From Eledone cirrhosa (lineage: Eukaryota; Mollusca; Cephalopoda; Octopoda; Eledonidae): a DNA stretch of 64,000 bases. Shown piece after piece: positions 3,902-63,967 of this stretch. Made by a program: the position numbers and the translations under genes. The number at the start of each line of letters is the position of its first letter. Positions within the stretch are counted from its first letter, which is position 1. The notes under the pieces are model-generated. The model made no database searches. It worked only from the letters and a program-made list of their open reading frames with translations, and was not told the origin of the DNA. Location: assembly GCA_964016885.1 (NCBI GenBank), contig OZ024743.1:172218154-172282153 (forward strand), written 5' to 3'.

Positions 3902-3935
3902 GTTGAAAAGGAGTGGAAAAGATGGGAAAGACCAC

Positions 3936-6184: not shown

Positions 6185-6432
6185 TTTTTTATTAACCACA
6201 AGGGTTTACATAAAGTAGACATTAAGGACAGTACAGGACAATACCGGCCGGTACAAATGGGCATTTCTGTGTGTAAAAAAAACAAAAACAGGATGTAACA
6301 AAAAAATAACAATGAAAAATTCCATAATAGGGGGGAGACTGCCGAGGGACATTTGTGGAAAAAGCCCATTAAAAGGCCACAGTGACCCCGGCCACCAGAG
6401 CAAATGCCCTCTCCCAGTTTTCCACCTTTAAT

Positions 6433-9400: not shown

Positions 9401-9843
9401 TGCATCTAAGATCCCGTTCCAGTCGCCCACTAACACTAAAGAGCGGGACGTTCCAAGAAAGGTCTCCAGACGCCGGAAGAAATCAGGCCGCCCTGCTCCT
9501 GTCGGGGCATAGACGGCCACTAGCCTGAAAGCTTGCCCTTCTCCGCTGTTCACGTCCAGCACCACCAACTTACCTTCTGGGTCCAGGAAGATGGCCCGTA
9601 TGGCGATATCCAAACCTCTCCGAAAAAGAACAGCAACTCCTCTCCCGACCCGGGATGGCTGGGAGATGCGTACACATCGTAGCCGCCGAAGATCGGTGCG
9701 AAGGCCCGTGCTTCGAATATTCTGGTCTCGCTGATTGCCACTACATCTATGTTTAGTGACCCGAGGTCGTTGAGCAGGTGGCCCTGCTTCCATGGCGACC
9801 CCAAGCCATGCGCATTTATGCTGCCTATTCTGAGTGAGGTCAT
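6433..9843 (-). pseudogene. ORF2 of copy B: APE endonuclease plus reverse transcriptase, heavily mutated
   Basis: The start at 9843 (MTSLRIGSINAHGLGS) matches copy A. A frameshift near 9640 splits the endonuclease, which continues to a TGA at 8906-8908. The RT continues in frame through a TAG at 8438 (Gln codon in copy A) and a TAG at 7793, which replaces the Tyr of the catalytic YVDD motif. Another stop lies at 7550 (Trp in copy A), with frameshifts near 7440-7480, 7050-7080 and 6790-6830. Unlike copy A, the motif B region is intact here (RSVRHGCPLSSHLYVL), so A and B carry mostly different inactivating lesions. Confidence 0.85.
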
Positions 9844-10161
9844 GTTGAAATGGAGTGGAAAAGATGGGAAAAACCACTTATCTTACTTCTCGTAGAGGAA
9901 GGATGGTTTCTCCATCCCTTTTCACTGCTTGTGGCCTCCTCAGGAAGGATGTCCTTATAAATCCTCCTGGAGAGTGCTTGTCGGAAGTCTCCGATGTCTT
10001 TGGGGAATTTTTGTTTTAGTGTCGTGTACGTTTTCTGTGTGATGCGAGTGATTCGTATGTGTGGAGGTTGTGAGAACTTTTGGATTGTTGTGTAGTCTTT
10101 TTCTGTGATGATGGTGTTGTGTTGGATGTAGTGTAATAATTGTTTGTTGTTTAAATTTAAT

Positions 10162-10219
10162 TGTTTCTACTTTTGGCACAAGCCCAGCAATTTTTCCAGT
10201 GTATTACTGGTACTTTTTC
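10162..10219 (-). mobile_element. Short SINE 3'-end insertion in copy B
   Basis: This insert, absent from copy A, carries only the tail part of the cephalopod SINE ('tttctacttttggcacaag' through 'tattactggtac'). It is bracketed by 'aaatttaat' at 10153-10161 and 10220-10228, a target duplication of at least 9 bp. This indicates a severely 5'-truncated SINE insertion of under 60 bp. Confidence 0.75.
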
Positions 10220-10574
10220 AAATTTAATGCTGTATAGTGTGTATCGTTTTGGTTGTTTTGTTTTGTTTGCGTTGTCATGGGTTTGTTTCTGTTTCGCTTT
10301 TTGGTGACTTTTGTGGCGTTTGTGATGGTGGTGTTGGGGTTAATGATGGTGATGGTGTTGGTGTTTGTGGTGATGGGGTTGGTGATGCTGGTGGGGATGG
10401 TGGCATATCTGTCCTAACTTTTTTGTTTGATAGTTTATTTGTTTCCCTCTGTATTTTGTTTTTGGAGGGGGAAGGAAGAGAATTTTTTTCTTTTTTGGTT
10501 TCTTTTTTTCTTTTTTGCTGATACCGTTCCCCACTCCTCGTAGTCACAATCTGTCTCCAGTTGCGATGGGCCGG

Positions 10575-10752
10575 GGAGTGGAAAATCCTCCACAGGCGTT
10601 GGTTTTGGTTCTGGCGTGGTGGATGGTGTAGGCGCTGGTGCTAGTTCTGGCGCGTTGGGTGGTGGAGTGGAAAATCCCCCACAGGCGTTGGTTTTGGTTG
10701 TGGTCTGGTGGATGGCGTAGTCGCTGGTGCTAGTTCTGGCGTGTTGGGTGGA
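10575..10752. repeat. 89-bp tandem duplication in ORF1 of copy B
   Basis: Two adjacent copies start with 'ggagtggaaaatc' at 10575 and 10664. Copy A has a single version. The unit is not a multiple of three, so it disrupts the Pro/Thr-rich ORF1 tail. Confidence 0.8.
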
Positions 10753-12061
10753 GGTGGTGGTGTTGGTTTTGCTACTGTTGCTGGGGTTGTTGCTGTTACA
10801 GTTGCTTCTGTTGTTGCTGCTACAGTTGTTGCTGCCATCTCTGTTGCTGGTGGTGTTGATGGTTGAGTCACTGGGGTGGGTAAGAGAGGTGGCCTCAACC
10901 TTTCAGGCTGAGGGCAGAAAGCCCTTAGGTGAGTTCCTTCACCACAAAGGAAACACCTAGGCCTTCTGCCCTCGACGATTACGGTGAGGTGGCTGCCGTC
11001 AGTGAGGTCTATTACCTCTGGGAACTCCTCAATGCCTTCTTGGTCCGCTTGGATCAGGAGCTCCATCCCAGATCCGGACCAGTTCTCCTGCTTTTCTTTC
11101 GCTATTTCGATTATCTTGGTGTTGGCTTCGAAGCCGGCGAGGACGGAAGCTATTAGCCAGGGAATTTCGATGGCCGGTGGAACGTGGGTCACTCTGATCT
11201 TCACGAGTCTCTGGCCAGAATAGCTTGGGACGAGTGTAAAGTCGTCACTTCTTAATGGGGCCATGGAGTGTTCTCTGGCCTCCTATGGTGTTTCAAAGAA
11301 CACGTCCACGGTTCCATTTTATTAGGTGGGGTGAGGCTGACCCTGTACCCATCTTTCTTTACCATTTTTTTGGCTTCTTCTAATTCCTCCTGAGTTACCT
11401 GAAATGCTTCGCACTGTTTTGCTACTCTGGCAAAACTCAGGGTGGTTTTCTTAATTTCATTGTTGTTGTTATCGTTATTTTTGTTATTGTTAATTTTAGT
11501 TTCAGTTGTGGTGGTGGTGGCGTCAGTGGTGTTCGGTGTGGAAGAGTTTATTTTGGTTGAATTCATTTCGATATCACGAGTTAATTTATTTTTTTCTCTT
11601 GTTTCTCTTGTCGCTGTGGTAGTGGTGGGGGTGGCGGCTTTAACAGATGCAGTCATTGGTAATGGCGGCAAATGAATGTCTGCCTGAGACAAATTTAAAA
11701 TATTGCTACTGCTTATATTTTTAGTGTTGGCAAACGTAGTAATATTTACAATGGTGGTGTCGGTGTGAGGTGTTAGTTTGTGAGGAAGGTGTGACTTTGA
11801 GTCATTCATGATTTTTTTCAAATAGATTTTTGTTTGATAATTATAAAAGTTTAAATTTTGGGCTCAACGCCCCAATCTTTTTGGGTGTCCTTTTCAGAAA
11901 ACAGTGTATGTGCACTCATATTCAGTTAACAATAAAAATTTTCCATAAATGGCAATTTTAAACAACTTAAACAGCAAAAAAATAATTATTATTGTTGTTG
12001 TATCTCTAAACTCTCTCAAAATGTTTAGTTTACACGATGTCAAATCTAAACTATAATATAA

Positions 12062-22877: not shown

Positions 22878-23928
22878 GGGAAGAAGACGCACGAGGTGAC
22901 GGAGGTCATGAAATCGCTCCCGTAAGTTTTGAATTTTTAACATATTTAAACCATTTGTGAAATAACAACTCTTAGCACAAATGCTACGTAAAGCACCCGG
23001 CTTGAGCCCCAAAAAATTCGGACCCAAAATATATTGTTATAAGGCTCAAATATTCAAATATTCAACTTTGTATTGTACACTGTATATCCAAAAAAAAAAA
23101 AATGGCTATAAATGGAAGAAGAACCCCTCCCCTCCTCTCCTCTGGCTACACTATATAGGACAGCTAAACTCACCAACACCAGAAACTAGATACACCACCC
23201 ACCCCATCATCTGTGTACACTAAACACAACAGCCAGATAACGACACATTTTCACCTTCACCGCCACCGCTCACTACGGCCATCATTACCACCACTATCCC
23301 ATCACCGCCGCCACCACCCCTTGACTCCGCTACAGCACCATCACTACAGTAATACGGTCACATCACCGCCACCACTGCCTCGGTATCGACATCACCACCA
23401 CCACTGTCTCAGTATCGCTAACGCCGCCAGTCTCCCACTTCCCTGCTGGTTGCTACTTCCACATTATAGAATTCCTACTACTACCAAAGAGGAAGGCATC
23501 AAAATATATAGATAGACCCAAAAGAAAAAAGAAAAAACAAACAACAAAACCAAAGCAGCACAACGAGAAAAACAAACAGAGAAAAACGAAAACAAAAAAA
23601 AGAAACCCCAAAAACGTAAAGAAAATAAGAATGAAGAGAGAAGCAGGCGGACGGACAGAGAAGAGGGGGGAAAAAGTAAAACTTAAAAAACTAAAACTAA
23701 GTCAGACATTCGAACACTACATTACAATGAAACTTATGCTTATTCATTTCTGGGGCCCTTTCTGCCTGTGTGTTTGTTTGTTTATGTGTGTTCGTATACA
23801 GCGTGGTGATAATGCCACACAAGGGCCAAGTGGGATGGCGGATCCACAGATGCTATGTAAACATACATTCGCCAATCCTCGATAAGAGTGTTTAAATATC
23901 GAACATAAACAGTTCGAATAACGGTGAA
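22878..23928 (+). promoter_or_regulatory. 5' leader of F1 copy E1
   Basis: This is a non-coding leader starting 'agggaagaagacgcacgagg'. It contains CCA/CAC-rich stretches at 23180-23480, A-rich stretches at 23520-23700, then a conserved block near the start codon ('catacattcgccaatcctcg', 'gttcgaataacggtgaa'). The first ~300 bp are homologous to the leader of F2. Such leaders should hold the internal promoter; I cannot identify promoter elements by eye. Confidence 0.65.
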
Positions 23929-26900
23929 ATGGAGACTAGAACGTCATGTGACAGACTCTCACCCAACAGGTGCCCCCTGGCTCAGCAGCAGGAACCTGAC
24001 TGTCAACCAAATACTGCTGATGTTGGAGGAAGGAGAAGAAGGAAAGGGGCCAGAACCAACTGGACGAAAGAATTGAATAGAACTGTTATGCAATGCTACC
24101 TGAAAAGTAACCCCAAGGAGAGGGGCTACAGGAGACGGATGCATAACATCTGGAACGAGATTGGTTTATTTAAATTAGATGAACAAAAATTGGCCGGGCA
24201 GGCTCGGGTAATAAGAACTAATGGGTGGATAAGCGAGCTGGAACTGGAGGAACTGAGCAGAGAGAATGGCTTGGAGATGGCGGGTGTAGTATGCCAGACA
24301 AGCGAGCCGGTGGGAAATGAAGGTGAGGAGGTCCTGAGAACGGAGGAACCACCCGAAGCAGACAATGATCTGAGTACTGAGATAAATAATACCTGGAACA
24401 GAGATACGGCCACTGAGGAGATGAATGCTGACGGGCTAGGACAAGATTCGGTTGACATCCTAAATTTAGTGGTAGATGAATTGAACAATGATAGTGGGAG
24501 ACCTATGAACCTAAGATTTGTAGACAGGAAAAAGTTAAAAGAAACAACAGCTAAGGTAAACAAAGTCATCCCATACCTTGAGGCGAGGAGCCTTCACCAG
24601 TGCAACAATATCCTCAGAGCAACAGCAAATACGGTGAGGAAACTACTTGGTATAAAAGCGAGAGGAAACAACAGACAAGAAAGAGCAGAGCCGTGGTGGA
24701 AGAAGCGACTGAGTGGGCAAATCGGGGAAATGAGAAATGACATAGGAAAGCTTGAGTCACTATTGAATGGGACACTAAAAAACATAGGCACTAAAAATAG
24801 ACTGGAAATAAAATACAAAACTAGGAGTAAAAAGTTAAATATTATCATAGAGGAATTGAAGCAACGCATTGTAGCAAAGAGTGCAAAAATCAGGCGATAC
24901 GAGAACAGAGTCAGTCAGTATAAACAGAACCGTATGTTCGACAACAACCAGAAGATGCTGTTTGGACAGCTTGAGGGCAAAGAAAGAGGCAACGACTTGA
25001 TCCCTGGGGCGGAGCAAACTAAAACATTCTGGAGAGGAATATGGGAGCAGGATGTTAGACACAATGCCCAGGCAGGGTGGATTGAGACAGTACAGAGGGA
25101 GATCGGTGAGCAGGCACAGCAACAGACTGATTTGAGTATCACAGTTGAAACTCTTAAGGGGCAAGCCAAAAAACTAACCAACTGGAAATCACCAGGCCCA
25201 GATGGTGTGCAGGGGTATTGGATTAAACATCTAACATCCCTCCACCCGAAGCTGACGGCCATGTTCAATGACTGCTTGGTGTCGGGTGAGGTGCCAGAGT
25301 GGTTGACAAAAGGTACCACAGTTCTGATAATGAAAGACCGAATCAAGGGTAATGATGCTACCAACTATAGACCTATCACATGTCTGCCCGTAATGTGGAA
25401 ACTGTTGACGAGCATTGTGTCTGAGGAAATCTACCATCACCTCCACACAAACAACTTGTTACCGGACGAACAGAAAGGATGCCGAAAGAAGTCACGTGGT
25501 ACAAAGGACCAGTTGCTTATTGATAAGATGGTAATGGGGAATTGCAGGAGGAGACACACTGATCTTGCCATGGGATGGATAGACTACAGAAAGGCATTTG
25601 ACATGGTGCCTCATTCCTGGATCACCAAAAGCCTGGAGATCTTCAGGGTGGCAGATAACATCAGACAGTTGCTAGGCAGGAGTATGGGGCCCTGGGAGAC
25701 AGAGTTGACATCAACTGGAGTATCCTTGGGAAGCGTGAAGATCAAGAGAGGTATCTTCCAGGGAGATAGCCTGTCCCCTCTGTTGTTTGTCCTTGCCCTG
25801 ATGCCCTTGACCATTATGCTGCGAAAAGTGAGAGCAGGATACAAGTTGGGAAGGGGAGAGCTTACCATCAATCACCTCCTCTTCATGGACGATCTTAAGC
25901 TCTTCGGGAAAAGTGAGAAGGAGTTGGATGTGCTTGTTGACACTGTCCGTATTTTCAGCAGTGATATATGTATGCAGTTTGGTATTGGTAAATGTGGAGT
26001 CATTGTGATGAAGAGGGGTAGGTTGAGCAGAAGTAACGGGATCCAGATACCAACAGGTGAGATGATAAAGGAAATTGACTCTGAGGAAGGATACAAGTAT
26101 TTGGGCGTTCTGGAGGCTGATGGCATAAAGAACAAAAAAATGAAGGAATTGTTAAGAACTGAATACATTCGGAGAGTAAGGAGCGTATTGAAGTCACATC
26201 TGAACAGCAGAAATGCCATAAGCGCAGTAAATTCCCGAGCTGTGTCTATTATTAGGTACAGTGCGGGAATTCTGAGATGGAATGTTGCTGAACAGAAAGA
26301 AATGGATAGGAAGACTAGGAAGCTATTGACTATCTACAACATGTTCCACAAGAGGAGTGATGTCGATAGACTCTACCTAAGGAGATATGAGGGTGGAAGA
26401 GGTCTTATCAGCATAGAGGACGGTGTTCAGATGGAGAAAAACAACCTATACAAATACGTGACCTATAGTAAGGAGCCAATGCTCAGAGCTGTACTGAAGG
26501 AGGGGACAGTAGGCCAGGGGATGTCCAGGGAGGAAATAACATCTAGGAGGAAGAGAAGCCTTAAGGGAAAACCCCTTCATAGTACCTTCTTTGAGAAAAC
26601 TGAATTTAGAGATCCACAGACATGGAACTGGTTGAGAAGAGGAGACCTCAAAAAGGCTACAGAAGGAATGCTAATGGCTGCGCAGGAGCAGGCCCTCAAA
26701 ACGAAGTGGTTGAAGCACCATATCTACAAGGAGGAGGCCAGCCCACTGTGCAGGATCTGTGGAGAGAGAGAGGAGACTGTGGCTCACATTGTGTCCGAGT
26801 GTAAACACCTAGCCCAGACCCACTATAAGGGCTGGAGACACGATGTGATGGGCTGGGTGATCCACTGGCACCTGTGCAAAGTAAACAATCTACCACATTC

Positions 26901-27321
26901 TGAGAAATGGTATGAGCATAGGCCAGAGGCGGTGATGGAGAACAATCAGGTGAAGGTGCTGTGGGATTTTAGGATACAGACGGACAAAAAACTGGAACAC
27001 AATAGACCTGACCTGGTGGTTGTGGACAAAGAAAAAAGATCGTGCCTGATTGTGGATGTGGCCTGCCCGTTCGACACGAGAGTGCAAGAGAAGGAGAGGG
27101 AGAAAATTAACCGATACCAGGACCTAAAGTGGGGGGTGAAAAGGATTTGGAATTGCCATGAAGTCAAAGTGATCCCGATTGTCATAGGCGCACTGGGGAC
27201 TATCTCCAAAAGTTTCCAGGGATGGTTAAAGAAAATCGGCCCCTTCACGCTTTTTGGAACGCTTCAAAAGGCATGCTTGCTTGGAACAGCAAGAACCCTC
27301 CGATACGTCCTGAATATCTGA
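23929..27321 (+). CDS. F1 LINE polyprotein: Myb-like, reverse transcriptase, CCHC, restriction-like endonuclease
   Basis: This is an intact 1130-aa ORF, the expected single ORF of an RLE-type LINE. Residues ~42-110 form a Myb/SANT-like block (TNWTKELNRTVMQCYL). The RT spans ~430-720: a KSPGPDGVQGYW block, motif A WIDYRKAFD (~549), motif B IFQGDSLSPLLF (~609) and motif C FMDD (~652). A CX2CX8HX4C knuckle, CRICGEREETVAHIVSEC, lies at ~941-958. The C-terminus has HNRPDLVV (~1023) followed 14 residues later by IVDVACPFD, matching the PD...D pattern of R2-like restriction-like endonucleases. The family copies element RNA at a nicked chromosomal target (target-primed reverse transcription). The order without an APE domain and the RT style point to the R4/Dong clade. 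The ATG at 23929 is shared by E4 and E5. I see no obvious lesion, so this copy could still be functional. Confidence 0.9.
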   Translation: METRTSCDRLSPNRCPLAQQQEPDCQPNTADVGGRRRRKGARTNWTKELNRTVMQCYLKSNPKERGYRRRMHNIWNEIGLFKLDEQKLAGQARVIRTNGWISELELEELSRENGLEMAGVVCQTSEPVGNEGEEVLRTEEPPEADNDLSTEINNTWNRDTATEEMNADGLGQDSVDILNLVVDELNNDSGRPMNLRFVDRKKLKETTAKVNKVIPYLEARSLHQCNNILRATANTVRKLLGIKARGNNRQERAEPWWKKRLSGQIGEMRNDIGKLESLLNGTLKNIGTKNRLEIKYKTRSKKLNIIIEELKQRIVAKSAKIRRYENRVSQYKQNRMFDNNQKMLFGQLEGKERGNDLIPGAEQTKTFWRGIWEQDVRHNAQAGWIETVQREIGEQAQQQTDLSITVETLKGQAKKLTNWKSPGPDGVQGYWIKHLTSLHPKLTAMFNDCLVSGEVPEWLTKGTTVLIMKDRIKGNDATNYRPITCLPVMWKLLTSIVSEEIYHHLHTNNLLPDEQKGCRKKSRGTKDQLLIDKMVMGNCRRRHTDLAMGWIDYRKAFDMVPHSWITKSLEIFRVADNIRQLLGRSMGPWETELTSTGVSLGSVKIKRGIFQGDSLSPLLFVLALMPLTIMLRKVRAGYKLGRGELTINHLLFMDDLKLFGKSEKELDVLVDTVRIFSSDICMQFGIGKCGVIVMKRGRLSRSNGIQIPTGEMIKEIDSEEGYKYLGVLEADGIKNKKMKELLRTEYIRRVRSVLKSHLNSRNAISAVNSRAVSIIRYSAGILRWNVAEQKEMDRKTRKLLTIYNMFHKRSDVDRLYLRRYEGGRGLISIEDGVQMEKNNLYKYVTYSKEPMLRAVLKEGTVGQGMSREEITSRRKRSLKGKPLHSTFFEKTEFRDPQTWNWLRRGDLKKATEGMLMAAQEQALKTKWLKHHIYKEEASPLCRICGEREETVAHIVSECKHLAQTHYKGWRHDVMGWVIHWHLCKVNNLPHSEKWYEHRPEAVMENNQVKVLWDFRIQTDKKLEHNRPDLVVVDKEKRSCLIVDVACPFDTRVQEKEREKINRYQDLKWGVKRIWNCHEVKVIPIVIGALGTISKSFQGWLKKIGPFTLFGTLQKACLLGTARTLRYVLNI

Positions 27322-39420: not shown

Positions 39421-40503
39421 GGGAAGAAGACGCACGAGGTGACGGAGGTCATGAAATCGCTCCCGTAAGTTCTGAATTTTTAACATATTTAAACCATTTG
39501 TGAAATAACAACTCTTAGTACAAATGCTACGTAAAGCACCCGGCTTGAGCCCCAAAAAATTCGGACCCAAAATATATTGTTATAAGGCTCAAATATTCAA
39601 ATATTCAACTTTGTATTGTACACTGTATATCCAAAAAATAAAATGACTATAAATGGAAGAAGAAGAACCCCCCCCCCCCTCCTCTCCTCTGGCTACACTA
39701 TATAGGACAGCTAAACTCACCAACACCAGAAACTAGATACATCACCCACCCCATCATCTGTGTACACTAAACACAACAGCCAGATAACGACATTTTCACC
39801 TCACCGCCACCGCTCACTACGGCCATCATTACCACCACTATCCCATCACCGCAGCCACCACCCCTTCACTCCTTCACTACTGCCACCGCTACAGCACCAT
39901 CACTACAGTAATAAGGGCATATCACCGCCACCACTGCCTCGGTATCGACATCACCACCACCACTGTCTCAGTATCGCTAACGCCGCAGTCTCCCACTTCT
40001 CCCTGCTGGCTGCTACTCCCACATAATAGAATTCCTACTACTAACAAAGAGGAAGGCATCAAAATATATAGATAGACTCAAAAGAAAAAAGAAAAAAGAA
40101 AAAACAAAACCAAAGCAGCACAGCAACAACAGCAAAAACGAGAAAAACAAACAGAGAAAAACAAAAACAAAAAAAGAAACCCCAAAAACGTAAAGAAAAT
40201 AAGAATGAAGAGAGAGGCAGGCGGACGGACAGAGAAGAGGGGGGGAAAAGTAAAACTTAAAAAACAAAAACTAAGTCAGACATTCGAACACTACATTACA
40301 ATGAAACTTATGCTTATTCATTTTTGGGGCCCTTTCTGCCTGTGTATTTGTTTGTTTATGTGTGTTCGTATACAGCGTGGCGATAATGCCACACAAGGGC
40401 CAAGTGGGATGGCGGATCCACAGATGGCTATGTAACTATACATTCGCCAATCCTCGATAAGAGTGTTTAAATATCGAACATAAACAGTTCGAATAACGGT
40501 GAA
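39420..40503 (+). promoter_or_regulatory. 5' leader of F1 copy E4
   Basis: This leader is near identical to the E1 leader, with small indels in homopolymers and CAC-rich stretches. It holds the same conserved block before the ATG ('gttcgaataacggtgaa'). No gene is seen. Confidence 0.65.
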
Positions 40504-43500
40504 ATGGAGACTAGAACGTCATGTGACAGACTCTCACCCAACAGGTGCCCCCTGGCTCAGCAGCAGGAACCTGACTGTCAACCAAATACTGCTGATGTTG
40601 AAGGAAGAAGAAGAAGGAAAGGGGCCAGAACCAACTGGACGAAAGAATTGAATAGAACTGTTATGCAATGCTACCTGAAAAGTAACCCCAAGGAGAGGGG
40701 CTACAGGAGACGGATGCATAACATCTGGAACGAGATTGGTTTATTTAAATTAGATGAACAAAAATTGGCCGGGCAGGCTCGGGTAATAAGAACTAATGGG
40801 TGGATAAGCGAGCTGGAACTGGAGGAACTGAGCAGAGAGAATGGCTTGGAGATGGCGGGTGTAGTATGCCAGACAAGCGAGCCGGTGGGAAATGAAGGTG
40901 GGGAGGTCCTGAGAACGGAGGAACCACCCGAAGCAGACAATGATCTGAATACTGAGATAAATAATACCTGGAACAGAGATACGGCCACTGAGGAGATGAA
41001 TGCTGACGGGCTAGGACAAGATTCGGTTGACATCCTAAATTTAGTGGTAGATGAATTGAGCAATGATAGTGGGAGACCTATGAACCTAAGATTTGTAGAC
41101 AGGAAAAAGTTAAAAGAAACAACAGCTAAGGTAAACAAAGTCATCCCATACCTTGAGGCGAGGAGCCTTCACCAGTGCAACAATATCCTCAAAGCAACAG
41201 CAAATACGGTGAGGAAACTACTTGGTATAAAAGCGAGAGGAAACAACAGACAAGAAAGAGCAGAGCCGTGGTGGAAGAAGCGACTGAGTGGGCAAATCGG
41301 GGAAATGAGAAATGACATAGGAAAGCTTGAGTCACTACTGAATGGGACACTAAAAAACATAGGCACTAAAAATAGACTGGAAATAAAATACAAAACTAGG
41401 AGTAAAAAGCTAAATATTATCATAGAGGAATTGAAGCAACGCATTGTAGCAAAGAGTGCAAAAATCAGGCGATACGAGAACAGAGTCAGTCAGTATAAAC
41501 AGAACCGCATGTTCGACAACAACCAGAAGATGCTGTTTGGACAGCTTGAGGGGAAAGAAAGAGGCAACGACTTGATCCCTGGGGCGGAACAAACTAAAAC
41601 ATTCTGGAGAGGAATATGGGAGCAGGATGTTAGACACAATGCCCAGGCAGGGTGGATTGAGACAGTACAGAGGGAGATCGGTGAGCAGGCACGACAACAG
41701 ACTGATTTGAGTATCACAGTTGAAACTCTTAAGGGGCAAGCCAAAAAACTAACCAACTGGAAATCACCAGGCCCAGATGGTGTGCAGGGGTATTGGATTA
41801 AACATTTAACATCCCTCCACCCGAAGCTGACGGCCATGTTCAATGACTGCTTGGTGTCGGGTGAGGTGCCAGAGTGGTTGACAAAAGGTACCACAGTTCT
41901 GATAATGAAAGACCGAATCAAGGGTAATGATGCTACCAACTATAGACCTATCACATGTCTGCCCGTAATGTGGAAACTGTTGACGAGCATTGTGTCTGAG
42001 GAAATCTACCATCACCTCCACACAAACAACTTGTTACCGGACGAACAGAAAGGATGCCGAAAGAAGTCACGTGGTACAAAGGACCAGTTGCTTATTGATA
42101 AGATGGTAATGGGGAATTGCAGGAGGAGACACACTGATCTTGCCATGGGATGGATAGACTACAGAAAGGCATTTGACATGGTGCCTCATTCCTGGATCAC
42201 CAAAAGCCTGGAGATCTTCAGGGTGGCGGATAACATCAGACAGTTGCTAGGCAGGAGTATGGGGTCCTGGGAGACAGAGCTGACATCAACTGGAGTATCC
42301 TTGGGAAGCGTGAAGATCAAGAGAGGTATCTTCCAGGGAGATAGCCTGTCCCCTCTGTTGTTTGTCCTTGCCCTGATGCCCTTGACCATTATGCTGCGAA
42401 AAGTGAGAGCAGGATACAAGTTGGAAAGGGGAGAGCTTACCATCAATCACCTCCTCTTCATGGACGATCTTAAGCTCTTCGGGAAAAGTGAGAAGGAGTT
42501 GGATGTGCTATGTATGCAGTTTGGTATTGGTAAATGTGGAGTCATTGTGATGAAGAGAGGTAGGTTGAGCAGAAGTAACGGGATCCAGATACCAACAGGT
42601 GAGATGATAAAGGAAATTGACTCTGAGGAAGGATACAAGTATTTGGGCGTTCTGGAGGCTGATGGCATAAAGAACAAAAAAATGAAGGAATTGTTAAGAA
42701 CTGAATACATTCGGAGAGTAAGGAGCGTATTGAAGTCACATCTGAACAGCAGAAATGCCATAAGCGCAGTAAATTCCCGAGCTGTGTCTATTATTAGGTA
42801 CAGTGCGGGAATTCTGAGATGGAATGTTGCTGAACAAAAAGAAATGGATAGGAAGACTAGGAAACTATTGACTATCTACAACATGTTCCACATGAGGAGT
42901 GATGTCGATAGACTCTACCTAAGGAGATCTGAGGGTGGAAGTGGTCTTATCAGCATAGAGGACTGTGTTCGGATGGAGAAAAACAACCTATACAAATACG
43001 TGACCTATAGTAAGGAGCCAATGCTCAGAACTGTACTGAAGGAGGGGACAGTAGGCCAGGGGATGTCCAAGGAGGAAATAACATCAAGGAGGAAGAGCAG
43101 CCTTAAGGGAAACTCCCTTCATAGTACCTTCTTTGAGAAAACTGAATTTAGAGATCCACAGACATGGAACTGGTTGAGAAGAGGAGACCTCAAAAAGGCT
43201 ACAGAAGGAATGCTAATGGCTGCGCAGGAGCAGGTCCTCAAAACGAAGTGGTTGAAGCACCATATCTACAAGGAGGAGGCTAGCCCACTGTGCAGGATCT
43301 GTGGAGAGAGAGAGGAGACTGTGGCTCACATTGTGTCCGAGTGTAAACACCTAGCCCAGACCCACTATAAGGGCTGGAGACACGATGTGATGGGCAGGGT
43401 GATTCACTGGCACCTGTGTAAAGTAAACAATCTACCACATTCTGAGAAATGGTATGAGCATAGGCCAGAGGCGGTGATGGAGAACAATCAGGTGAAGGTG

Positions 43501-43863
43501 CTGTGGGATTTTAGGATACAGACGGACAAAAAACTGGAACACAATAGACCTGACCTGGTGGTTGTGGACAAAGAAAAAAGATCGTGCCTGATTGTGGATG
43601 TGGCCTGCCCGTTCGACACGAGAGTGCAAGAGAAGGAGAGGGAGAAAATTAACCGATACCAGGACCTAAAGTGGGAGGTGAAAAGGATTTGGAACTGCCA
43701 TGAAGTCAAAGTGATCCCGATTGTCATAGGCGCACTGGGGACTATCTCCAAAAGTTTCCAGGGATGGTTAAAGAAAATCGGCCCCTTCACGCTTTTTGGA
43801 ACGCTTCAAAAAGCATGCTTGCTTGGAACAGCAAGAACCCTCCGATACGTCCTGAATATCTGA
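40504..43863 (+). CDS. F1 LINE polyprotein, copy E4 (open frame, 11-codon deletion in RT)
   Basis: The open frame of 1119 aa is almost the same as the E1 protein, with Myb-like, RT, CCHC and RLE blocks in order. The catalytic motifs WIDYRKAFD, IFQGDSLSPLLF and FMDD are intact, as are the knuckle CRICGEREETVAHIVSEC and the RPDLVV...VDVACPFD endonuclease block. A 33-bp in-frame deletion just after motif C removes VDTVRIFSSDI, so KELDVL runs straight into CMQFGIGKCG. This lies in the palm next to the active site and probably disables the RT, although the frame is preserved. I annotate it as a coding frame with doubtful function. Confidence 0.8.
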   Translation: METRTSCDRLSPNRCPLAQQQEPDCQPNTADVEGRRRRKGARTNWTKELNRTVMQCYLKSNPKERGYRRRMHNIWNEIGLFKLDEQKLAGQARVIRTNGWISELELEELSRENGLEMAGVVCQTSEPVGNEGGEVLRTEEPPEADNDLNTEINNTWNRDTATEEMNADGLGQDSVDILNLVVDELSNDSGRPMNLRFVDRKKLKETTAKVNKVIPYLEARSLHQCNNILKATANTVRKLLGIKARGNNRQERAEPWWKKRLSGQIGEMRNDIGKLESLLNGTLKNIGTKNRLEIKYKTRSKKLNIIIEELKQRIVAKSAKIRRYENRVSQYKQNRMFDNNQKMLFGQLEGKERGNDLIPGAEQTKTFWRGIWEQDVRHNAQAGWIETVQREIGEQARQQTDLSITVETLKGQAKKLTNWKSPGPDGVQGYWIKHLTSLHPKLTAMFNDCLVSGEVPEWLTKGTTVLIMKDRIKGNDATNYRPITCLPVMWKLLTSIVSEEIYHHLHTNNLLPDEQKGCRKKSRGTKDQLLIDKMVMGNCRRRHTDLAMGWIDYRKAFDMVPHSWITKSLEIFRVADNIRQLLGRSMGSWETELTSTGVSLGSVKIKRGIFQGDSLSPLLFVLALMPLTIMLRKVRAGYKLERGELTINHLLFMDDLKLFGKSEKELDVLCMQFGIGKCGVIVMKRGRLSRSNGIQIPTGEMIKEIDSEEGYKYLGVLEADGIKNKKMKELLRTEYIRRVRSVLKSHLNSRNAISAVNSRAVSIIRYSAGILRWNVAEQKEMDRKTRKLLTIYNMFHMRSDVDRLYLRRSEGGSGLISIEDCVRMEKNNLYKYVTYSKEPMLRTVLKEGTVGQGMSKEEITSRRKSSLKGNSLHSTFFEKTEFRDPQTWNWLRRGDLKKATEGMLMAAQEQVLKTKWLKHHIYKEEASPLCRICGEREETVAHIVSECKHLAQTHYKGWRHDVMGRVIHWHLCKVNNLPHSEKWYEHRPEAVMENNQVKVLWDFRIQTDKKLEHNRPDLVVVDKEKRSCLIVDVACPFDTRVQEKEREKINRYQDLKWEVKRIWNCHEVKVIPIVIGALGTISKSFQGWLKKIGPFTLFGTLQKACLLGTARTLRYVLNI

Positions 43864-56253: not shown

Positions 56254-57423
56254 GATATATATATTTAGAATGTTGAGAAGTGAGACACGAGTTGATATAT
56301 ATGATAGTAAAGAAGAAAAAATGTTAATGGGATTTTCTCATAGAATAACAGCAAAACATTTATTTACAAAAAAGGAGTTTACCGTACCGGTTTCAGCAAC
56401 GTGGGTTTCTTCATGCTACGGAAGTGTATAAAAACATTTATAATGGGATTTATATTAATAAGAATATATTATAAAATAACATTACACATATATATATATA
56501 TGCATATATATATGTTTGTTATAATTGGGGAGGGTCATATTGTTATAATATTGTCAGAAATAATAACAGAACATACCCACTGTTTGGTTTGTGTTGGTTT
56601 TTGCTTCTATATCTTTTATATCTCCATAGTTAATTTATTTGATAATCAATGTTTATCATTGATTGACCAACGGTAAAAAATACAGATATAAATATATATA
56701 TATAGTCTATCAAAGTTCTTTCGTCACACATCCGCGATATCATCAGTGGTACTATTATGTTTCCTCCCATTGTATTATAATGCCTACGCCATTTTTATTT
56801 TATTTATTTATGTCTTCTTGTCTCTGTTTCTGCGCATTTGCTTGTATGTATGTTTGTCGTGTGTGTTCGCGTTGAGTGTATGTATTTTTGTTTTTGTATT
56901 CTATGTGTTTGTTGTTATTGTACTTGTGTTTATATTTATTGATTTATTTATTTATATTTCCCTTAAGTCAGTATTGTTTGTTTGGGTATGGTTGTTGTTG
57001 TTATTCCATTCATTCTTTCTGTTCAACTTCGGACTTCTTAGTTCTATTACTTCTCTGATTTGCCTACTTGTTGAGTCATTTCTATGCTTAAGATATTATT
57101 TTAATTTCTATGTTGTCTATATTACTGTCATGTCTGGCGTGTTCATGTTTTTGTCCTTATTGCCGCCTTTGTTGGTCTATTCTTTCTCCTATGCTTCGAG
57201 CTCTCTCACCTATGTATGTCGTTGTTATGTTTCTGCAAGTACCTTCTGTACATCTTATGCTATAGACTACATTTCTACTTTTACAATTTAACAGCTAGCG
57301 TGTTCTGTTATTATTTCTGGCAATATTATAATAATATGACCCTCCCCACGTATAACAATATTTCTTTGACACACGATTTCATATCAGAAACCTTGCAAAA
57401 CAGATATATATATATATATATAT
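56254..57423. other. AT-rich region without recognisable gene
   Basis: The stretch is T-rich on the plus strand with TA-rich spacers at 56490-56515 and 57404-57426. Open frames here (for example 56746-57291) are strings of Phe, Leu, Val and Tyr from T-rich low-complexity DNA with no domain. A short block at 56380-56420 ('ccgtaccggtttcagcaacg') is GC-richer and can pair with itself, which may be a relic of a Penelope-like or other structured repeat. I assign no function. Confidence 0.6.
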
Positions 57424-57540
57424 ATAGGAAAAAGTATGACCCCGACGGCAGAGCTCAAGCCGTTTCGACGGCTATTTCTGGACCAGAAATAGCCGTCGAA
57501 ACGGTTTGAACTCTGCCGTCGGGGTCATACTTTTTCCTAT
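57424..57540. repeat. Near-perfect 117-bp hairpin (58-bp arms)
   Basis: The arms run from 57424 and back from 57540 with a single central base at 57482. I find only two imperfect pairs (57459/57505 and 57454/57510). The sequence 'aaaaagtatgaccccgacgg' is the outer part. It caps the left end of the palindrome and recurs, with a spacer, at the right end (59138-59293). Confidence 0.93.
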
Positions 57541-57813
57541 TTACCACTCTACTATCCTAAGTATTGAGTACTCTGGTGCGTTATGGTCCATCTGGTTCCT
57601 TACCACAATTCCTTTGTTATATATATATATATATATATATATAAGTATGTATACGTACATACATATATTTACATACATGCACATATACATATAAATGTAC
57701 GTATGGATTTACCGAACATTTATTATAATGCTCAGTTTGTTTCTAAACAAACATCCCGAATTAAGCTGTACAGTGTTTAGCAACCATCGTTGCCCTTTTG
57801 TTCAACACTGACA

Positions 57814-57868
57814 AAGGAACGATGTACAAGTTTCAAGCTTATTAGCTATCGTCAGCACCGTATACCTT
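57814..57868 (-). ncRNA. Hammerhead-ribozyme-like motif, copy 1
   Basis: On the minus strand the order is AAGG, TAT, ACGGTG (stem I), CTGACGA core, T, AGCT-AATA-AGCT (stem II), T, GAAAC, TT, GTA, CATCGT (stem I partner), T, CCTT. All invariant core bases (CUGANGA, GAAA, and U16.1 before the cleavage base) are present. Stem III is minimal: the A-U and C-G pairs close a 2-nt loop. Cleavage is predicted between 57825 and 57824. The base pair normally next to the core in stem II is a U/U mismatch, the main weakness. Confidence 0.7.
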
Positions 57869-58247
57869 CCTGCCAGATGATTGAACGTCTGAAAGTATAT
57901 ACTTTCCTTATGCATATTAACGGCTGAGCAGCCTAATTTGCATATCGAGTGAGTTAATCGGCCGGGCGCACCGAAAACGATAAATGGAAAAAATGAAACG
58001 AAATTTCTTTTCTCACTCTCAGTACGGCTGTTACTTAAATATAAGTATGTATACATACATACATATAAGTATACAGGCGCACAGTAGTATGTATATATAT
58101 ATATACATACATGCACACATATATATATATGTACGTATGGATTTACCGAACATTTATTATAATGCTCGGTTTGTTTGTAAACAAACATCCCGAATTAAGC
58201 CGCACCGTGTTTAGCAACCATCGTTGCCCTTTTGTTCAACACTGACA

Positions 58248-58302
58248 AAGGAACGATGTACTAGTTTCAAGCTTATTAGCTATCGTCAGCACCGTATACC
58301 TT
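58248..58302 (-). ncRNA. Hammerhead-ribozyme-like motif, copy 2
   Basis: The elements are the same as copy 1, with TA in place of TT before the GTA. Stem I (ACGGTG with CATCGT, plus AAGG with CCTT) and stem II (AGCT-AATA-AGCT) are intact. It lies one monomer, 434 nt, from copy 1 in the same orientation. Predicted cleavage lies between 58259 and 58258. Confidence 0.7.
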
Positions 58303-58698
58303 CCTGTCAGAGTTCATCGTTCCTTTATCAGTGTTGAACAAAAGAGCAACGATGGTTGCTAAACAATGTACGGCTTAATTCGGGATGTTTGTTTACAAAC
58401 AAACCAGGCATTATAATAAATGTTCGGTAAATCTATACGTACATATATATATGTGTGCATGTATGTATATATATACATACTACTGTGAGTCTGTATACAT
58501 ATATGTATGTACGTATACATACTTATATTTAAGTAACAGCCGTACTGAGAAGGAGAAATGAAATTTCGTTTCATTTTTTCCGTTTATCGTTTTCGGTGCG
58601 CCCGGCCGATTAACTCACTCGATATGCAAATTAGGCTGCTCAGCCGTTAATATGCATAAGGAAAGTATATACTTTCAGACGTTCAATCACCTAGCAGG

Positions 58699-58753
58699 AA
58701 GGTATACGGTGCTGACGATAGCTAATAAGCCTGAAACTAGTACATCGTTCCTT
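58699..58753 (+). ncRNA. Hammerhead-ribozyme-like motif, copy 3
   Basis: In plus orientation: AAGG-TAT-ACGGTG, CTGACGA, T-AGCT-AATA-AGCC-T, GAAAC, TA, GTA, CATCGT-T-CCTT. One stem II pair is lost (AGCC instead of AGCT). Predicted cleavage is after 58742. It lies at the boundary of the complete plus-strand monomer and the next partial one. Confidence 0.65.
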
Positions 58754-59137
58754 TGTCAGTGTTGAACAAAAGGGCAACGGTGGTTGCTAAACACTGTACG
58801 GCTTAATTCGGGATGTTTGTTTACAAACAAACCGAGCATTATAATAAATGTTCGGTAAATCTATACGTACATATATATGTGTGTGCATATATGTATATAT
58901 ATACATACTACTGTGCGTCTGTATACATATATGTATGTACGTATAGATACTTATATTTAAGTAACAGCCGTACTGAGAGGGAGAAATGAAATTTCTTATC
59001 ATTTTTTCCGTTTATATATATATATACGTACATACATGTGTATATATATATATATATATAACAAAGGAATTGTGGTAAGGAATGGACCATAACGCACCAG
59101 AGTATTCAATAATTAGGGTAGTAGAGTGGGAATAGGA

Positions 59138-59293
59138 AAAAGTATGACCCCAGAGGCAGAGCTCAAGCCGTTTCGACGGCTATTTCTGGACTAAATTAGA
59201 ATATTTTTTCTTTATACACCAGGCTAAAAATTCTAATTTAGTCCAGAAATAGCCGTTGAAACGGCTTGAGCTCTGCTGTCGGGGTCATACTTT
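59138..59293. repeat. Hairpin with ~30-bp loop at the right end of the palindrome
   Basis: The arms (about 59138-59201 and 59231-59293) contain the same motif as the left hairpin ('gctcaagccgtttcgacggc') but extend through 'actaaattagaat' and its complement before a loop. The left hairpin lacks this extension and loop. Confidence 0.85.
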
Positions 59294-59298
59294 ATATA

Positions 59299-59822
59299 TA
59301 ACAAAATAAGATGCTGAGGTTACATATATAGTTTAATCATAATAATTATTTCCACGGTTCTCCATGCAATAGAGATGTCCTTCATGCATTTGCTGTTGAT
59401 TATGAGAACGGTATCCTCAGAAGAAAATCGTTATGTTTGATATGTCACTGGCAGGAAAAAACACACATCCTATTGCTTGTGTGCGCAGCATACATATGAG
59501 TTCATTGAAGGGCTTGCCAGCCGTCGTGTTTTCTAGAGAAAGCTATCAACGAAAAGAGACGAAAACAACGAAGAACTATGTGCCGCCAAAACCCAGTAGA
59601 CAGTGAAAGCAATAAATGGAGCTCTGGGGGGGGGGGTTATATATTTTGTTGACAACCACCTATAGACAACAATTACAACAACAACAACAACAAAAACGAC
59701 GACGACGACGACAACGACAACAACGATAATAACATCAAACCGCCGACCAATGTCTTCCACACTGGTCGCAATAGTCGTGGTGATACTACCACCCTATTGA
59801 CAACAACAACTAAAACAACAGC
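59299..59822 (-). repeat. Direct repeat at the 3' side of the Penelope-like element
   Basis: It matches 63458-63967 in the same orientation (start 'taacaaaataagatgctgag' at 59299 and 63458, end 'acaacaacaactaa'). Copies differ at scattered positions, including CAA-repeat length. Direct repeats of this kind flanking a Penelope-like element are usually called pseudo-LTRs. Confidence 0.8.
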
Positions 59823-60775
59823 TACAATAAACACAACGACAACGACAGCAACAAACGACAACAAGAGACCAGCGTCGTGTACACAGGACGCAGTCGTCGC
59901 AGTGACGGTACTGCCCTGTCGACAATAAACAGCGTTAACGCCAAAGTAATAAAAAGGAGGTCAGAGGTAGGTGGGTACACAGAGTTGGTGGTATCAATGA
60001 CCATGACCATAAATAGCAACAACAACAATGGTAACGGCAACAAGCACCAACACCACCCATCACCCACCCCGTTCGTCGTAGTATTGGTGGTATCATCTAT
60101 GTTAGTATTAAGCCATTGGTAACACCACCACCAACAACAACAACAACACCAGTGATGACCCCACCACAGCGACGGCGGGAACACGAAAAAGCCACGCTTC
60201 CATGAAAAATAAACTAACCACAATAGTAGTCCGTTGAAAACAAGGAAGTGAAAATGGGATAGAAACATAGATGGGTATTTTTTATATATAAACAAATACA
60301 TTTACAGTTAATACAATCCTCTCTATCATTGTAAGGCCCAATTCAGTCCCAACTACAGTGGCAACAATACTATTAAAGGGGCTGTTAGGCTATGGAAGAG
60401 AGTTACGGGAAGCGAAAGTAGGGACAGGAACAAGCAAATAAGAAACGAGAACACATATAGAGAACACAATAATAAAAGAACGGGACAAAAATACATAAAA
60501 AACAGCAGTAGGTATATAAACAGAGGAATAAGGAAGAAAGGACAAGAAACATGTACACATAGAGACTCCAGGTGTGCAAACAAGATATCCAAGGTTCGTC
60601 TGACGCTGGGGTTGCTGCGTGCCGTGCCCGGCTTCCACGGACAAGTTTGCAATAGTCTTCAACTAGTACAACTACGTTGTTAGTCTGTACAGTTTGAAAA
60701 ACGTTCCAGATGACCTGTGTAGGCAGGTACTGAAGAGGTTACTCCTTTTATTGATAACTTGAGCTCCCCTCTCGA
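59823..60775 (-). other. 3' region of the Penelope-like element, no gene
   Basis: This holds CAA- and CCA-rich low-complexity DNA (59823-60160) including a diverged second version of the 59700-59790 block, then A-rich sequence to 60560 and a more complex stretch to 60775 that follows the end of the endonuclease frame. Open frames in the region are low complexity and I do not call them. Confidence 0.6.
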
Positions 60776-63310
60776 TTATTTCCATAATCTCGGTGACACA
60801 CAAATCGCACGAGTCATGTACACCCCTTCGTAGGGTTGGGCCGAGGCTACCTTGGACCACGACAAGGTGAATTCTACGTTATCATGTTTGAGATGCCACA
60901 CTAGTTCTGAGAGGGCGGTACTGTGTTTCTTATCAACCCTCTTAAAGGTGTGGCAGTGATTGTACCAGCGTTCCTTAAATTTAGTAGCTGTGGCTCCGGT
61001 ATAGGTGGAGGTATGGTTGTTGGTATTCACCCTACATTCATATACCAAGCCACTGCCGAGGCACCTACCCTCCAGGAGGCAGTTACTGGGGTTTCTACAA
61101 TTACGGCCCGGAGAGGTGTTGCCGCCTTGAGCTCCGGATCGCGTTGTATGATTTCCCGGTCTTTCACGGTCCAAGATGTTACCAATAGAGGAAGAGGTAT
61201 GTGCGTGGTGCGTCTCCTCACGGTTGCTGTTTCCCCTGGAGTTGCGGACGTTTTTATAATCTACTGCGGTTCAAGGCTTATATATTTTGTGCTAGGTATC
61301 TAGTTGTGGAGTAGGACAATTTAATCGTGTGCCTGTTGAAGATGGCGTGGTACCGGTGTTGTTTATGGAAGTGCTTATCCAAAGCCCTGAAGAAAGAGGC
61401 CACTATGTTGTTGCGTAAACCGGCGCAGAGGGTGGGGGGGTAAACCAAATGACATTACGGGAACGGGTTCGCTTCTTGTTGTAGTCATCAGGCTCCGCAC
61501 CTGTTCCGTCAGAGTATGTGTTGCGTATTCACTGTGGACGTCTGGAAGAGCCATGCCCCCCAATTCGTCGCTGCCCATTGGGTTGGTTAAGCCGATCGGA
61601 GCACCCCGAACTGAGTGGTCTCCATTCATAACGAGGGAGGCTGTTTGTACCTTCTACACTCACTCCCGGGCCCACACATGTCCCCCGCGGCTCCACTGCG
61701 TGGGCTTCCCTGCTTTCCAATGTAGCCGAGGTCTGGTCCCTTCCTAATAAGCCATGGTTAGCAGTTCCTCCAGGATTACTCTATAGTGTGGTATCAGGGA
61801 TGAGTAATGAAGTCCTAGTCGTGTTGGTCCCGTCGTTGTTTCCTTCCGATGTGTTACTGTCAGCGGTATTCATTAGACTGGGTATAAACTTAATTCCTTC
61901 CTTGTAACCTGCATTACTAAGGGTATTATTATAATAGCTAGCTACGCTATTGAAGTTTTCCTGGCTAGGTGACAAAGAAGAAATCCTACGGGATATGTTA
62001 TTAACTATGGCACTCCTGATTGACCCGGGATGGTTGGAGTTGGCATTTAAGTACTTGAGGCACTCGTTCGGCTTGTGGTGCGGGTAGTAGAGGCAGGTTT
62101 CTATATTGATGGTAACATCCAGAAAGTTGACTATATTTCTATTATTTTCTATGTCTATACTGAGGCCTAGGTTTTTGAAAAATGTAATTAAGCTCTTTCT
62201 AGTCCTTGTTATCACGCTGTTGCTGTGGTCGAGTAGCATAAACAACGCATCGTCGCGGTATATTCCACCGCCTAACGATGGGATCTCGCTTTTCAGGTTC
62301 CTGAGGATGTAGAGGCCGACCAGGTCAGTAACCTGCGCCAAGGTGCTCGGTCCCGTCGTTATGTCAAAATTGTCCGGCCACTCTCTCCTTGTCCAGAGCT
62401 CCCCGTCGAAATCTATCAGTGATTTCCTGGCAGTATGAATGATGTTAATTTCATCCGTCAGTATACCTGCGTGCAAACATAAGTGCCTTGTTAAGCACCA
62501 CCGGGGAGATTGATGCATAATTATTACATATATCTAGCTGTATAAAATGTGTCCTACCTTTGCACTGCAGTCCGTTAAACCACTCAATTACTTCCCCCGT
62601 TCTGGACCATTGCTGTAATTGGATCTTCTTTCTAAGGGTTGGTATGATTCTGTCCAGTATTTTCTTGCTAATACACCCGATGTTAGACTTTGATGGTACT
62701 ATAAGTCTGGCTGGGAGTTCCGTTCCGAAGTTCAGTTTGTGATCCTTTAGCAAGATACGGGGTACTTTGAGTTGGTAAGGTCCGGTCCTATCCGCAATGC
62801 TGAGTATTTTCACTATTCTATTAGTCCGCTCGTTAATGTCGTCAAGGTTAGCCTGTGTAGTTTTTCTGTAATTCTCTTAAGTTCCTTAAGTGTTAGTTTT
62901 CTATAAGTTGCTGCATCCAAGTTGTAGAGGTCACCCGTTTTATCCGCATCAACGAGAATTCCGCCTGAGCATTTTAGTGCAGAGATCCTATTCGCTAGTT
63001 TCCTGAGGTGAGGCTGCTCTTTAGATGGGAACCTATTGAATTTGACGCCTGAAATAATATTGGCCATCTCTTTCTCAAAGCTCTCCATAAGTTTCTTTTG
63101 CGGTGGGTTTTTTCTAGATTTAAAACCGAACGCAGAGTCCGGGTTGCCAGTGTTCACATCATTCGTAGGGGTTTTCCTATCAAAGTGGAAGGCCTTCCAC
63201 CGCATTCTGCTTACAAACGAATCTGTTTTAAAGATTAGCTGTCTGGTGTACTCCTTTTTGCTGGGTAAGCGAATGTCCTTCAGCGACTCGGAGATGTTAG
63301 AAGATTGCAT
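60776..63310 (-). pseudogene. Penelope-like RT / GIY-YIG protein, broken frame
   Basis: The N-terminal part (63310-62813) has FNRFPSKEQPHLRKLAN and VDADKTGDLYNLDAATYRKL, the DKT block typical of Penelope RTs. After a frameshift, 62813-62451 reads PRILLKDHKLNFGTELPARL, IVPSKSNIGCISKKILDRI and the motif A region HFIQLDICNNYASISP. A second shift gives 62518-61781 with the catalytic GGGIYRDDALFMLL (YRDD) and IVNFLDVTINIETCLYY, then LNANSNHPGSI. The linker to 61174 is degenerate. The endonuclease (61174-60776) has a Cys-rich start (CRNPSNCLLEGRC), GLVYECRV, TYTGATATKFKERW and ALSELVWHLK, matching GIY-YIG blocks in order. Such proteins copy RNA at a nicked or exposed DNA end. At least three lesions make it inactive. 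Confidence 0.87.
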
Positions 63311-63457
63311 CCTATTTTCAGCTGCTTATTCTCAAAGGGCTCAACAGTGCTGGAGCTGTATGTGTTCGGTAAAGATTGTTTTGGTAAAAACAGGAGTAAG
63401 CAGGAGAAAGTTCTCAACAATCGTTGTTTTTAGTTACGATGGAGAATTTTATAAAAA
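63311..63457 (-). other. Leader between direct repeat and Penelope frame
   Basis: A 147-bp stretch with no obvious signal; the plus-strand open frame through it is an antisense shadow of the element. Confidence 0.5.
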
Positions 63458-63967
63458 TAACAAAATAAGATGCTGAGGTTACATAAATCGTTTAATCAGT
63501 ATAATTATTTCCACGATTCTCCATGCAATAGAGATGTCCTTCATGCATTTGCTGTTGATTATGAGAACGGTATCCTCAGAAGAAAATCGATATGTTTGAT
63601 ATGTCGCTGACAGGAAAACACACGTCCTAATGCCTGTGTGCGCAGCATACATATGAGTTCATTGAAGGGTTTGCCAGCCGTCGTGTTTGCTAGAGAAAGC
63701 TATCAGCGAAAAAAGACGAAAAGAACGAAGAACTGTGTGCCGCCAAAACCAAGTATACAGTGGAAGCAATAAATGGAGCTCTGAGGGGAGGGGGGTTATA
63801 TATTTTGTTGACAACCACCTATAGACAACAACTACAATAACAACAACAACAACGACAACAACAATAACGACAATAACATCAAACCGCCGACCAATGTTGT
63901 CCACACTGGTCGCAATAGTTGTGGTGATACCATCACCCTATTGACAACAACAACTAAAGCAACAGCT
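63458..63967 (-). repeat. Direct repeat at the 5' side of the Penelope-like element
   Basis: This is the partner of 59299-59822. I looked for a hammerhead core (CTGANGA with a nearby GAAA) in this repeat and did not find one, unlike in the adjacent palindrome. Confidence 0.8.

Follow-up and report, generated by a model that had tools for sequence, protein, structure and literature searches.

The window analysed here is a 64,000-nucleotide (64-kb) stretch of the Eledone cirrhosa genome (C4:172218154-172282153) with a GC content of 0.43. Near one end it holds three hammerhead ribozyme motifs on two strands, and both strands belong to one head-to-head insertion of a short repeat (57643-59015; Table 1). 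The monomer is 428 nt long in the plus arm and reaches 434 nt, with 36% G+C. The arms of such insertions tend to stop at one of two internal monomer positions, A (about 217) or B (about 273). The window pair is A/B by eye: the automatic rule gives x for the minus-arm end, where the alignment stops early, and A was assigned by inspection. The insertion sits in the (TA)n centre of an older inverted-repeat element, and look-alike flanks of this host element were recognised by eye at two further loci (L022 and L049). The predicted hairpin between A and B has a z-score of -1.65 (13 of 200 shuffles are equally stable), and a second family of the repeat has a stronger one at the same place (z -3.03); the alignment of this segment, 57 rows, was inspected by eye. 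Both families also conserve ATGCAAAT at monomer position ~305-320 (window ~58620-58635), which we take to be the octamer of small-RNA promoters.

Alongside lies a putative Penelope-like element (PLE) spanning 59298-63967, with direct repeats of about 525 bp. Its identity is read from motifs in the window, LDICNNYASI and YRDD, which we take to be RT-like, and a presumably GIY-YIG-like end, together with its relatives. Pfam gave no match to it at E<=0.001 and nothing relevant at E<=5. The model of one relative (P0006) is poor (mean pLDDT 60.5); its best Foldseek match is HIV RT at E 0.024, with none at E<=0.001. A PDB sequence search was dropped as support for the assignment. Elsewhere in the window are long retrotransposon-like ORFs that are nearly identical to each other (1141 and 1130 aa), as well as LINE-like ORFs in a block that is duplicated; all were named by eye (23896-27321, 40471-43863, 434-5940 and 6373-11863).

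Table 1. Features of the insertion and its surroundings (window coordinates)
Feature	Position	Strand	Remark
Older inverted-repeat element, left arm	57421..57616		insertion lies in the (TA)n centre of this element
(TA)n flank, minus-arm outer end	57617..57642		presumed target
Minus arm, ~1.5 monomers	57643..58306	-	outer 3' end type A (..CATACTTATAT followed by (TA)n) at ~57643, by eye
Hammerhead 1	57819..57861	-	predicted cleavage between 57825 and 57824
Hammerhead 2	58253..58295	-	predicted cleavage between 58259 and 58258
Head-to-head arm junction	58306..58315		
Plus arm, ~1.65 monomers	58311..59015	+	outer 3' end type B (..TTTTTTCCGTTTAT followed by (AT)n) at 59015
Full monomer, 428 nt	58315-58742	+	inside the plus arm
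Internal copy of end/start site A	58527..58531	+	monomer position about 213-217
A-B segment with predicted hairpin	58532..58587	+	comparable to the optional PLE 'tail'
Hammerhead 3	58706..58748	+	predicted cleavage between 58742 and 58743
TA-rich flank, plus-arm outer end	59016..59062		presumed target
Older inverted-repeat host element, right arm	59063..59293		
3' pLTR-like direct repeat of window PLE	59298..59823	-	91% identical to 63457-63967
Broken PLE coding pieces	60776..63325	-	motifs LDICNNYASI, YRDD; GIY-YIG-like end
5' pLTR-like direct repeat of window PLE	63457..63967	-	

Hammerhead motifs and their covariation

A preliminary description of this DNA had reported three hammerhead-like motifs, and we confirm that all three are real. 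They lie where they had been placed, two on the minus strand and one on the plus strand, and each has the core order ACGGTG, CTGACGA, stem II, GAAAC, GTA, CATCGT. The outer AAGG/CCTT helix is present, as had been written, and the cores of the same-strand pair are indeed 434 nt apart. The AGCT pairing given for stem II holds in hammerheads 1 and 2, but in hammerhead 3 it has one extra mismatch (AGCC for AGCT). A distal GTTCAA/TTGAAC helix that the description lacked is also present. Stem III of hammerhead 1 reads ACTTGT, and the base of stem II is a U.U mismatch in all three motifs. The structure is that of a type I hammerhead: a CUGANGA..GAAA..UH core with stems I, II and III, of which stem I is open.

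Taken alone, the bare pattern CTGANGA-N8-38-GAAAC is weak evidence beyond chance in the window, where it occurs four times against 1.39 expected and 3 of 100 shuffles reach four. A scan that also required stems I-III, run on the window without shuffles, returned exactly the three motifs; over 38 loci, most retrieved by homology and some overlapping, it found 67 motifs against 0 in the reversed sequences. The genome counts, rather than the pattern count in the window, decide that the motif exceeds chance: in 2.98 Gb on 1582 contigs, the 43-nt motif is matched 20,081 times with no more than three mismatches, and its reversed pattern 0 times.

The looser pattern CTGANGA-N8-30-GAAAC occurs 133,382 times genome-wide, and its reverse 29,588 times. 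The genome seems to hold several hammerhead families, because 55 of the first 100 listed places have a stem II of at least three pairs, against 8.7% when the inner bases are shuffled. These first 100 places include other hammerhead-like families with stem II of, for example, AGGACTAGCGTCC, GTTGTAACAACAAC or TTTCTAAAGAAT, and the U.U at the base of stem II recurs in 10 distinct stem-II-bearing strings. One further hammerhead-like motif recurs in unrelated loci, with a long stem II, stem I of TATTTTAT/ATAAAATA and a palindromic-like stem III, ATATGTAT; it lies at L017:3381(-), L019:36(+), L025:847(-) and 1053(+), and in L063 (near window-scale 65888).

The stems co-vary. In an alignment of 84 copies (77 distinct), the proposed structure is paired in 92.6% of cells, and the hammerhead stems contain 40 cells with two-sided changes, against 7.7 in shuffles. 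Sliding the partner strand leaves at most 47% of cells paired; a slide of +2 columns also yields 12 pairs in which both sides changed, though with only 16 such cells and 40% pairing. The alignment comprises 78 of 101 copies, one further window copy, four copies of the second family (family 2) and L001; the 23 copies left out have indels or come from L044 or L043. At stem I pair columns 34/70 we find G.U, U.G, A-U or U-A. Of the 77 distinct copies, 72 lack a pair at the base of stem II, mainly having U.U there, and the remainder have G-C, C-G or U-A. The core is intact in 70 of the 84.

The covariance-model check suggested for a type I hammerhead came out the other way. No Rfam hammerhead was found in the window or in 11 loci at the gathering score, nor over 57000-59500 at E<=10, and we infer that the Rfam models miss the motif owing to its minimal stem III. 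MicroRNA-precursor models matched inverted and TA repeats at E<=10 and were taken as chance. Unconstrained folding did not return the hammerhead fold.

Stem III would consist of an A-U and a C-G pair closed by a 2-nt loop. Its hexamer, ACUAGU, is self-complementary and is found in 74 of the 84 copies, among them those of family 2 and L001, in which the other stems are different. The predicted ribozyme probably acts as a dimer, two copies sharing a 6-bp stem III, because a palindromic stem III with a 2-nt loop would hardly form within a single RNA. PLEs have small dimeric hammerhead variants (Lunse et al. 2017; Cervera & de la Pena 2014; cited in PMC7761336) whose stem III is likewise very short and which are expected to dimerise. 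Newt and axolotl ribozymes also work better in dimers (PMC7229834). The U.U mismatch at the base of stem II had been raised as a caveat; it is not a strong one, since axolotl HHR_Amex2 has a U.U in the same position and is active (22% of the monomer cleaved in 1 h, and much better cleavage by the dimer; PMC7229834).

In L048 (three aligned copies, both arms) and L028, core position C3 is changed to A (ATGACGA/ATGACAA) within a full head-to-head insertion. As judged from these source copies with a dead core, a cis-active ribozyme may be dispensable for insertion.

Arrangement of retrozyme copies in the genome

The repeat had been read as a non-autonomous hammerhead retrozyme. That reading is supported by its copy number, its period of about 430 nt, its 36% G+C, the covariation and arms that run through the cleavage site. 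The hammerhead occurs once per short tandem repeat of low G+C. Metazoan non-LTR retrozymes (Cervera & de la Pena 2020, PMC7229834) share a type I hammerhead per short low-G+C repeat, tandem copies and a weak stem III. At 428 nt the retrozyme exceeds the published RNAs (170-400 nt) and falls inside the published repeats (150-450 bp; PMC7229834). Published metazoan retrozymes are described there as tandem repeats; ours, known from genomic sequence, form head-to-head pairs with two fixed ends.

Forty of the 45 loci compared are best matches to the window monomer (L009-L043 and L045-L048; the best 40 of 3,486 candidates were scored) and not a random sample. Two duplicates and the long array L044 were left out, L049-L052 came from the loose-pattern list, and L059-L062 were picked for adjacent minus and plus motifs; 45 loci remained after deduplication. 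Junctions in this set are head-to-head in 32 cases, four of them picked as such, and tail-to-tail in one (L015). Among the 100 listed places with an exact motif, neighbours within 1 kb are minus-plus 5 times, plus-minus 0 times and on the same strand 14 times; 12 of the 14 same-strand spacings measure 424-476 nt.

The outer 3' ends of the arms cluster. Among the 72 arms with a readable flank, 58 stop at A or B, and the two ends of a junction tend to differ: where both were classed automatically (n=17), 16 junctions are A/B, one is B/B and none is A/A (one-sided p=1.4e-4). The lone B/B pair (L023) has a minus end adjoining non-TA DNA. At 15 of the 32 junctions at least one end lies at neither site. 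Ten nucleotides of TA alternation adjoin 43 of the 58 ends at A or B, against 2 of 14 other ends, and flanks of at least 90% A+T are found at 39 of those 58, against 48 of 518 random flank 20-mers from the same loci. The flanks being mostly (TA)n, a target site duplication (longer than 4 bp when present in retrozymes) is not readable.

Could the repeat be satellite DNA that spread at the DNA level by duplication, tandem or inverted, and by (TA)n tracts recombining with each other, with the hammerhead as a relic? Long direct tandem arrays do exist, namely L044 (14 motif copies in 6 kb) and six same-strand motifs at C1:94398411-94400759, and a TA-rich stretch in the monomer could recombine with (TA)n and mimic end A. 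Inverted duplication, however, predicts symmetric ends and palindromic junctions, in place of which we see 16 of 17 pairs ending A/B and arms whose 5' ends mostly differ. The sole A end of family 2 adjoins (CAT)n, not (TA)n, and spread across many contigs requires transposition. We regard a satellite origin as highly improbable.

The 5' ends of the arms, by contrast with an expected pile-up at the cleavage site, are scattered. An eight-bin chi-square test gives p 0.11, the fullest bin (18) being the last one, 374-428, and only 1 of 73 arms starts within 5 nt of the predicted cleavage site, which rules out the cleaved linear monomer as template. Moreover, 51 of 73 arms are longer than one monomer, the longest measuring 2,552 nt. 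Because the 5' ends are scattered and most arms exceed a monomer, the template is, as judged from the inserted copies, circular or multimeric RNA.

Both arms come from one RNA source, because opposite arms share variants as units of one arm do: 98/681 for opposite arms, 146/1,129 for units of one arm and 2,681/91,923 for different loci. The value for opposite arms (0.144) exceeds the largest of 1,000 permutations (0.080). The sharing is uneven: L043 accounts for 19 of the 98, and several loci contribute nothing. At the 32 junctions the arms overlap by 1-6 nt in 16 cases and by more in two, are blunt in four and carry extra bases in 10.

Self-priming on an antisense template would also make head-to-head copies. 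It was proposed for Adineta Penelope and is the mechanism that Arkhipova et al. prefer (PMC3846280). Three of our junctions are near-symmetric, as it predicts: L034 (381/381), L033 (227/228) and L039 (193/199). At most junctions, however, the monomer positions that meet are unrelated (420/103, 290/8 and 59/380 are examples), and a single snap-back cDNA cannot give asymmetric junctions without later deletion. The pairing of A with B would also go unexplained, and we consider self-priming unlikely here.

Family 2 has a 466-nt monomer, found in L053 and L057, that is 66% identical to the first over 307 nt. Its hammerhead stems are AAATATTG/CAATGTT and GTTGT/ACAAC. In L053 alone, one arm end lies at the B-homologous site and one at the A-homologous site, the latter being the end that adjoins the (CAT)n repeat.

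Penelope-like elements of the same genome

The preliminary description had tied the retrozyme to its Penelope-like neighbour. For the neighbour itself the tie is the weaker one: the scan with stems I-III found no hammerhead in the window PLE, which was therefore rejected as the source of the motif. No inverted pLTR was seen among the matches listed for it, where short pieces could be missed. PLE pieces occur in 6 of 58 loci, which by itself says that both elements are common and nothing more. The Penelope link is better founded on an insertion architecture common to the retrozyme and another PLE of this genome.

Searching with the window PLE piece, with 150 of 34,212 candidates scored, we retrieved many members of a young family that is about 56% identical to it. 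At one locus (L070/L071), two segments in opposite orientation share 99.8% identity over 1,828 bases, and a hammerhead-like motif lies in the pLTR. The 35-nt 3' part of this hammerhead has 4,932 matches in the genome, against 0 for the control. Among the 100 places listed, neighbours within 5 kb are minus-plus 24 times, plus-minus 0 times, plus-plus once and minus-minus once.

We read four PLE loci, chosen as head-to-head. The outer ends are A and B at all three loci with both ends readable (L070/L071, A + B; L072/L073, B + A; L076/L077, A + B), and the fourth is N + A. Site A lies at about 291-295 and site B at about 395-398 of the pLTR, and the flanks are TA-rich. End A itself lies within TTTAACTTTAT, not in a TA tract, which again counts against a DNA-level origin by recombination with (TA)n. 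Resemblance in cis sequence between retrozyme and PLE is confined to short look-alikes at site A, found by eye (ACTTATAT, AACTTAAT and AACTTTAT).

Two further observations concern the junctions of this PLE. L070 is internally complex: a unit in which an inverted pLTR adjoins the beginning of the PLE ORF is present twice in direct orientation (1570-2318 and 4340-5089), which looks like copying of the head-to-head junction itself. Six of the 24 head-to-head motif pairs are exactly 321 nt apart (C1), which suggests that one junction was copied repeatedly or that there is a preferred junction.

The retrozyme is no PLE itself. Unlike PLEs, its 428-nt monomer is too short for an RT/endonuclease ORF, and there is no detectable homology, with no BLAST match at E<=0.1 between the retrozyme and the hammerhead-bearing PLE. 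Presumably it also differs from the small dimeric PLE hammerheads, in that its stems I and II are long and it is a separate small element. The distance from A to B is about 56 nt in the retrozyme and about 104 nt in the PLE here, and the tail in Adineta is 31 bp (PMC3846280).

What the retrozyme does share with PLEs is the way in which it is inserted: head-to-head copies, a tail at one of two inverted ends and an AT-rich target. Published accounts of endonuclease-containing PLEs (PMC3846280, PMC11167929) describe the same head-to-head copies, optional tail at one end and AT-rich targets, with a hammerhead near the RT starts. In most Penelope copies the arrangement is head-to-head, and one inverted pLTR may carry a tail (PMC3846280). 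The mirror-image arrangement common to the retrozyme and a Penelope of the same animal suggests, by analogy, that a Penelope enzyme copies the retrozyme.

Mobilisation by a LINE has to be weighed against this. Ordinary target-primed reverse transcription with twin priming yields head-to-head inversions with short overlaps, such as those found here, and LINE-like ORFs, named by eye, are plentiful in the window. LINEs, however, are not known to leave fixed internal 3' ends at two positions, one per arm, without poly(A), and that is what we see, with no poly(A) at either end. The two-end pattern is instead that of the PLE, here and in print (PMC3846280), and LINE mobilisation seems to us very unlikely.

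Proposed mechanism and implications

The explanation that we favour, and consider probable, is that a high-copy non-autonomous retrozyme has its RNA taken in trans by a PLE RT/endonuclease, which starts at two sites, and that the cDNAs are joined head-to-head. Trans-mobilisation by a PLE is proposed because the retrozyme and the PLE of the same genome both show the published PLE signature. A multimeric transcript would fold into type I hammerheads, probably dimeric through the palindromic stem III ACUAGU. Cleavage would release retrozyme monomers, which would then circularise, and the RNA would be taken up in trans by the Penelope-like RT/endonuclease. The enzyme would cut both strands at a TA-rich site, and reverse transcription would start on each cut strand at an internal RNA site, with A (~217) usually serving one strand and B (~273) the other. 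More than one monomer would be copied from both sides, and the two cDNAs would be joined head-to-head, often at short overlaps. Cleavage, circles and PLE protein acting in trans are the inferred parts of this scheme.

Biochemistry bears on these steps. PLE protein has been shown to cut AT-rich DNA on both strands, to extend both, and to begin copying at two neighbouring sites inside the RNA (PMC11167929). In vitro, however, the start site is alike on both strands (Frangieh et al., PMC11167929), and this lowers our confidence in the explanation as a whole. It also weighs on a further proposal, which we hold tentatively and with some doubt: that circles are copied by a two-headed PLE complex with a distinct start site for each cut strand, giving head-to-head, A/B-ended, rolling-circle multimers. 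The same in-vitro finding of no strand difference is why we rate that proposal lower.

The enzyme that moves retrozymes has been a matter of candidates. For Cervera & de la Pena (2020), PLEs are a strong candidate and no more (PMC7229834), and a December 2024 review names LINEs or PLEs as the possible movers (PMC11722881). In a search mostly of openly available papers, we found no publication on retrozymes with inverted head-to-head copies or on Penelope hammerheads with a head-to-head arrangement. The head-to-head insertion signature of the retrozyme is the new part, and the preliminary description had missed it.

A retrozyme with a PLE insertion signature, in a genome whose own PLEs bear that signature, means that the question of the mover can be put to the test with a single purified protein and one short RNA. 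PLE integration is constrained as well: the paired A/B ends favour separate extensions, one from each target strand, over one snap-back cDNA. If a two-headed complex does use a distinct start site on each strand, thousands of retrozyme and PLE loci would record, in fossil form, target-primed reverse transcription running in both directions in vivo, and would supply the missing link between retrozymes and their enzyme.
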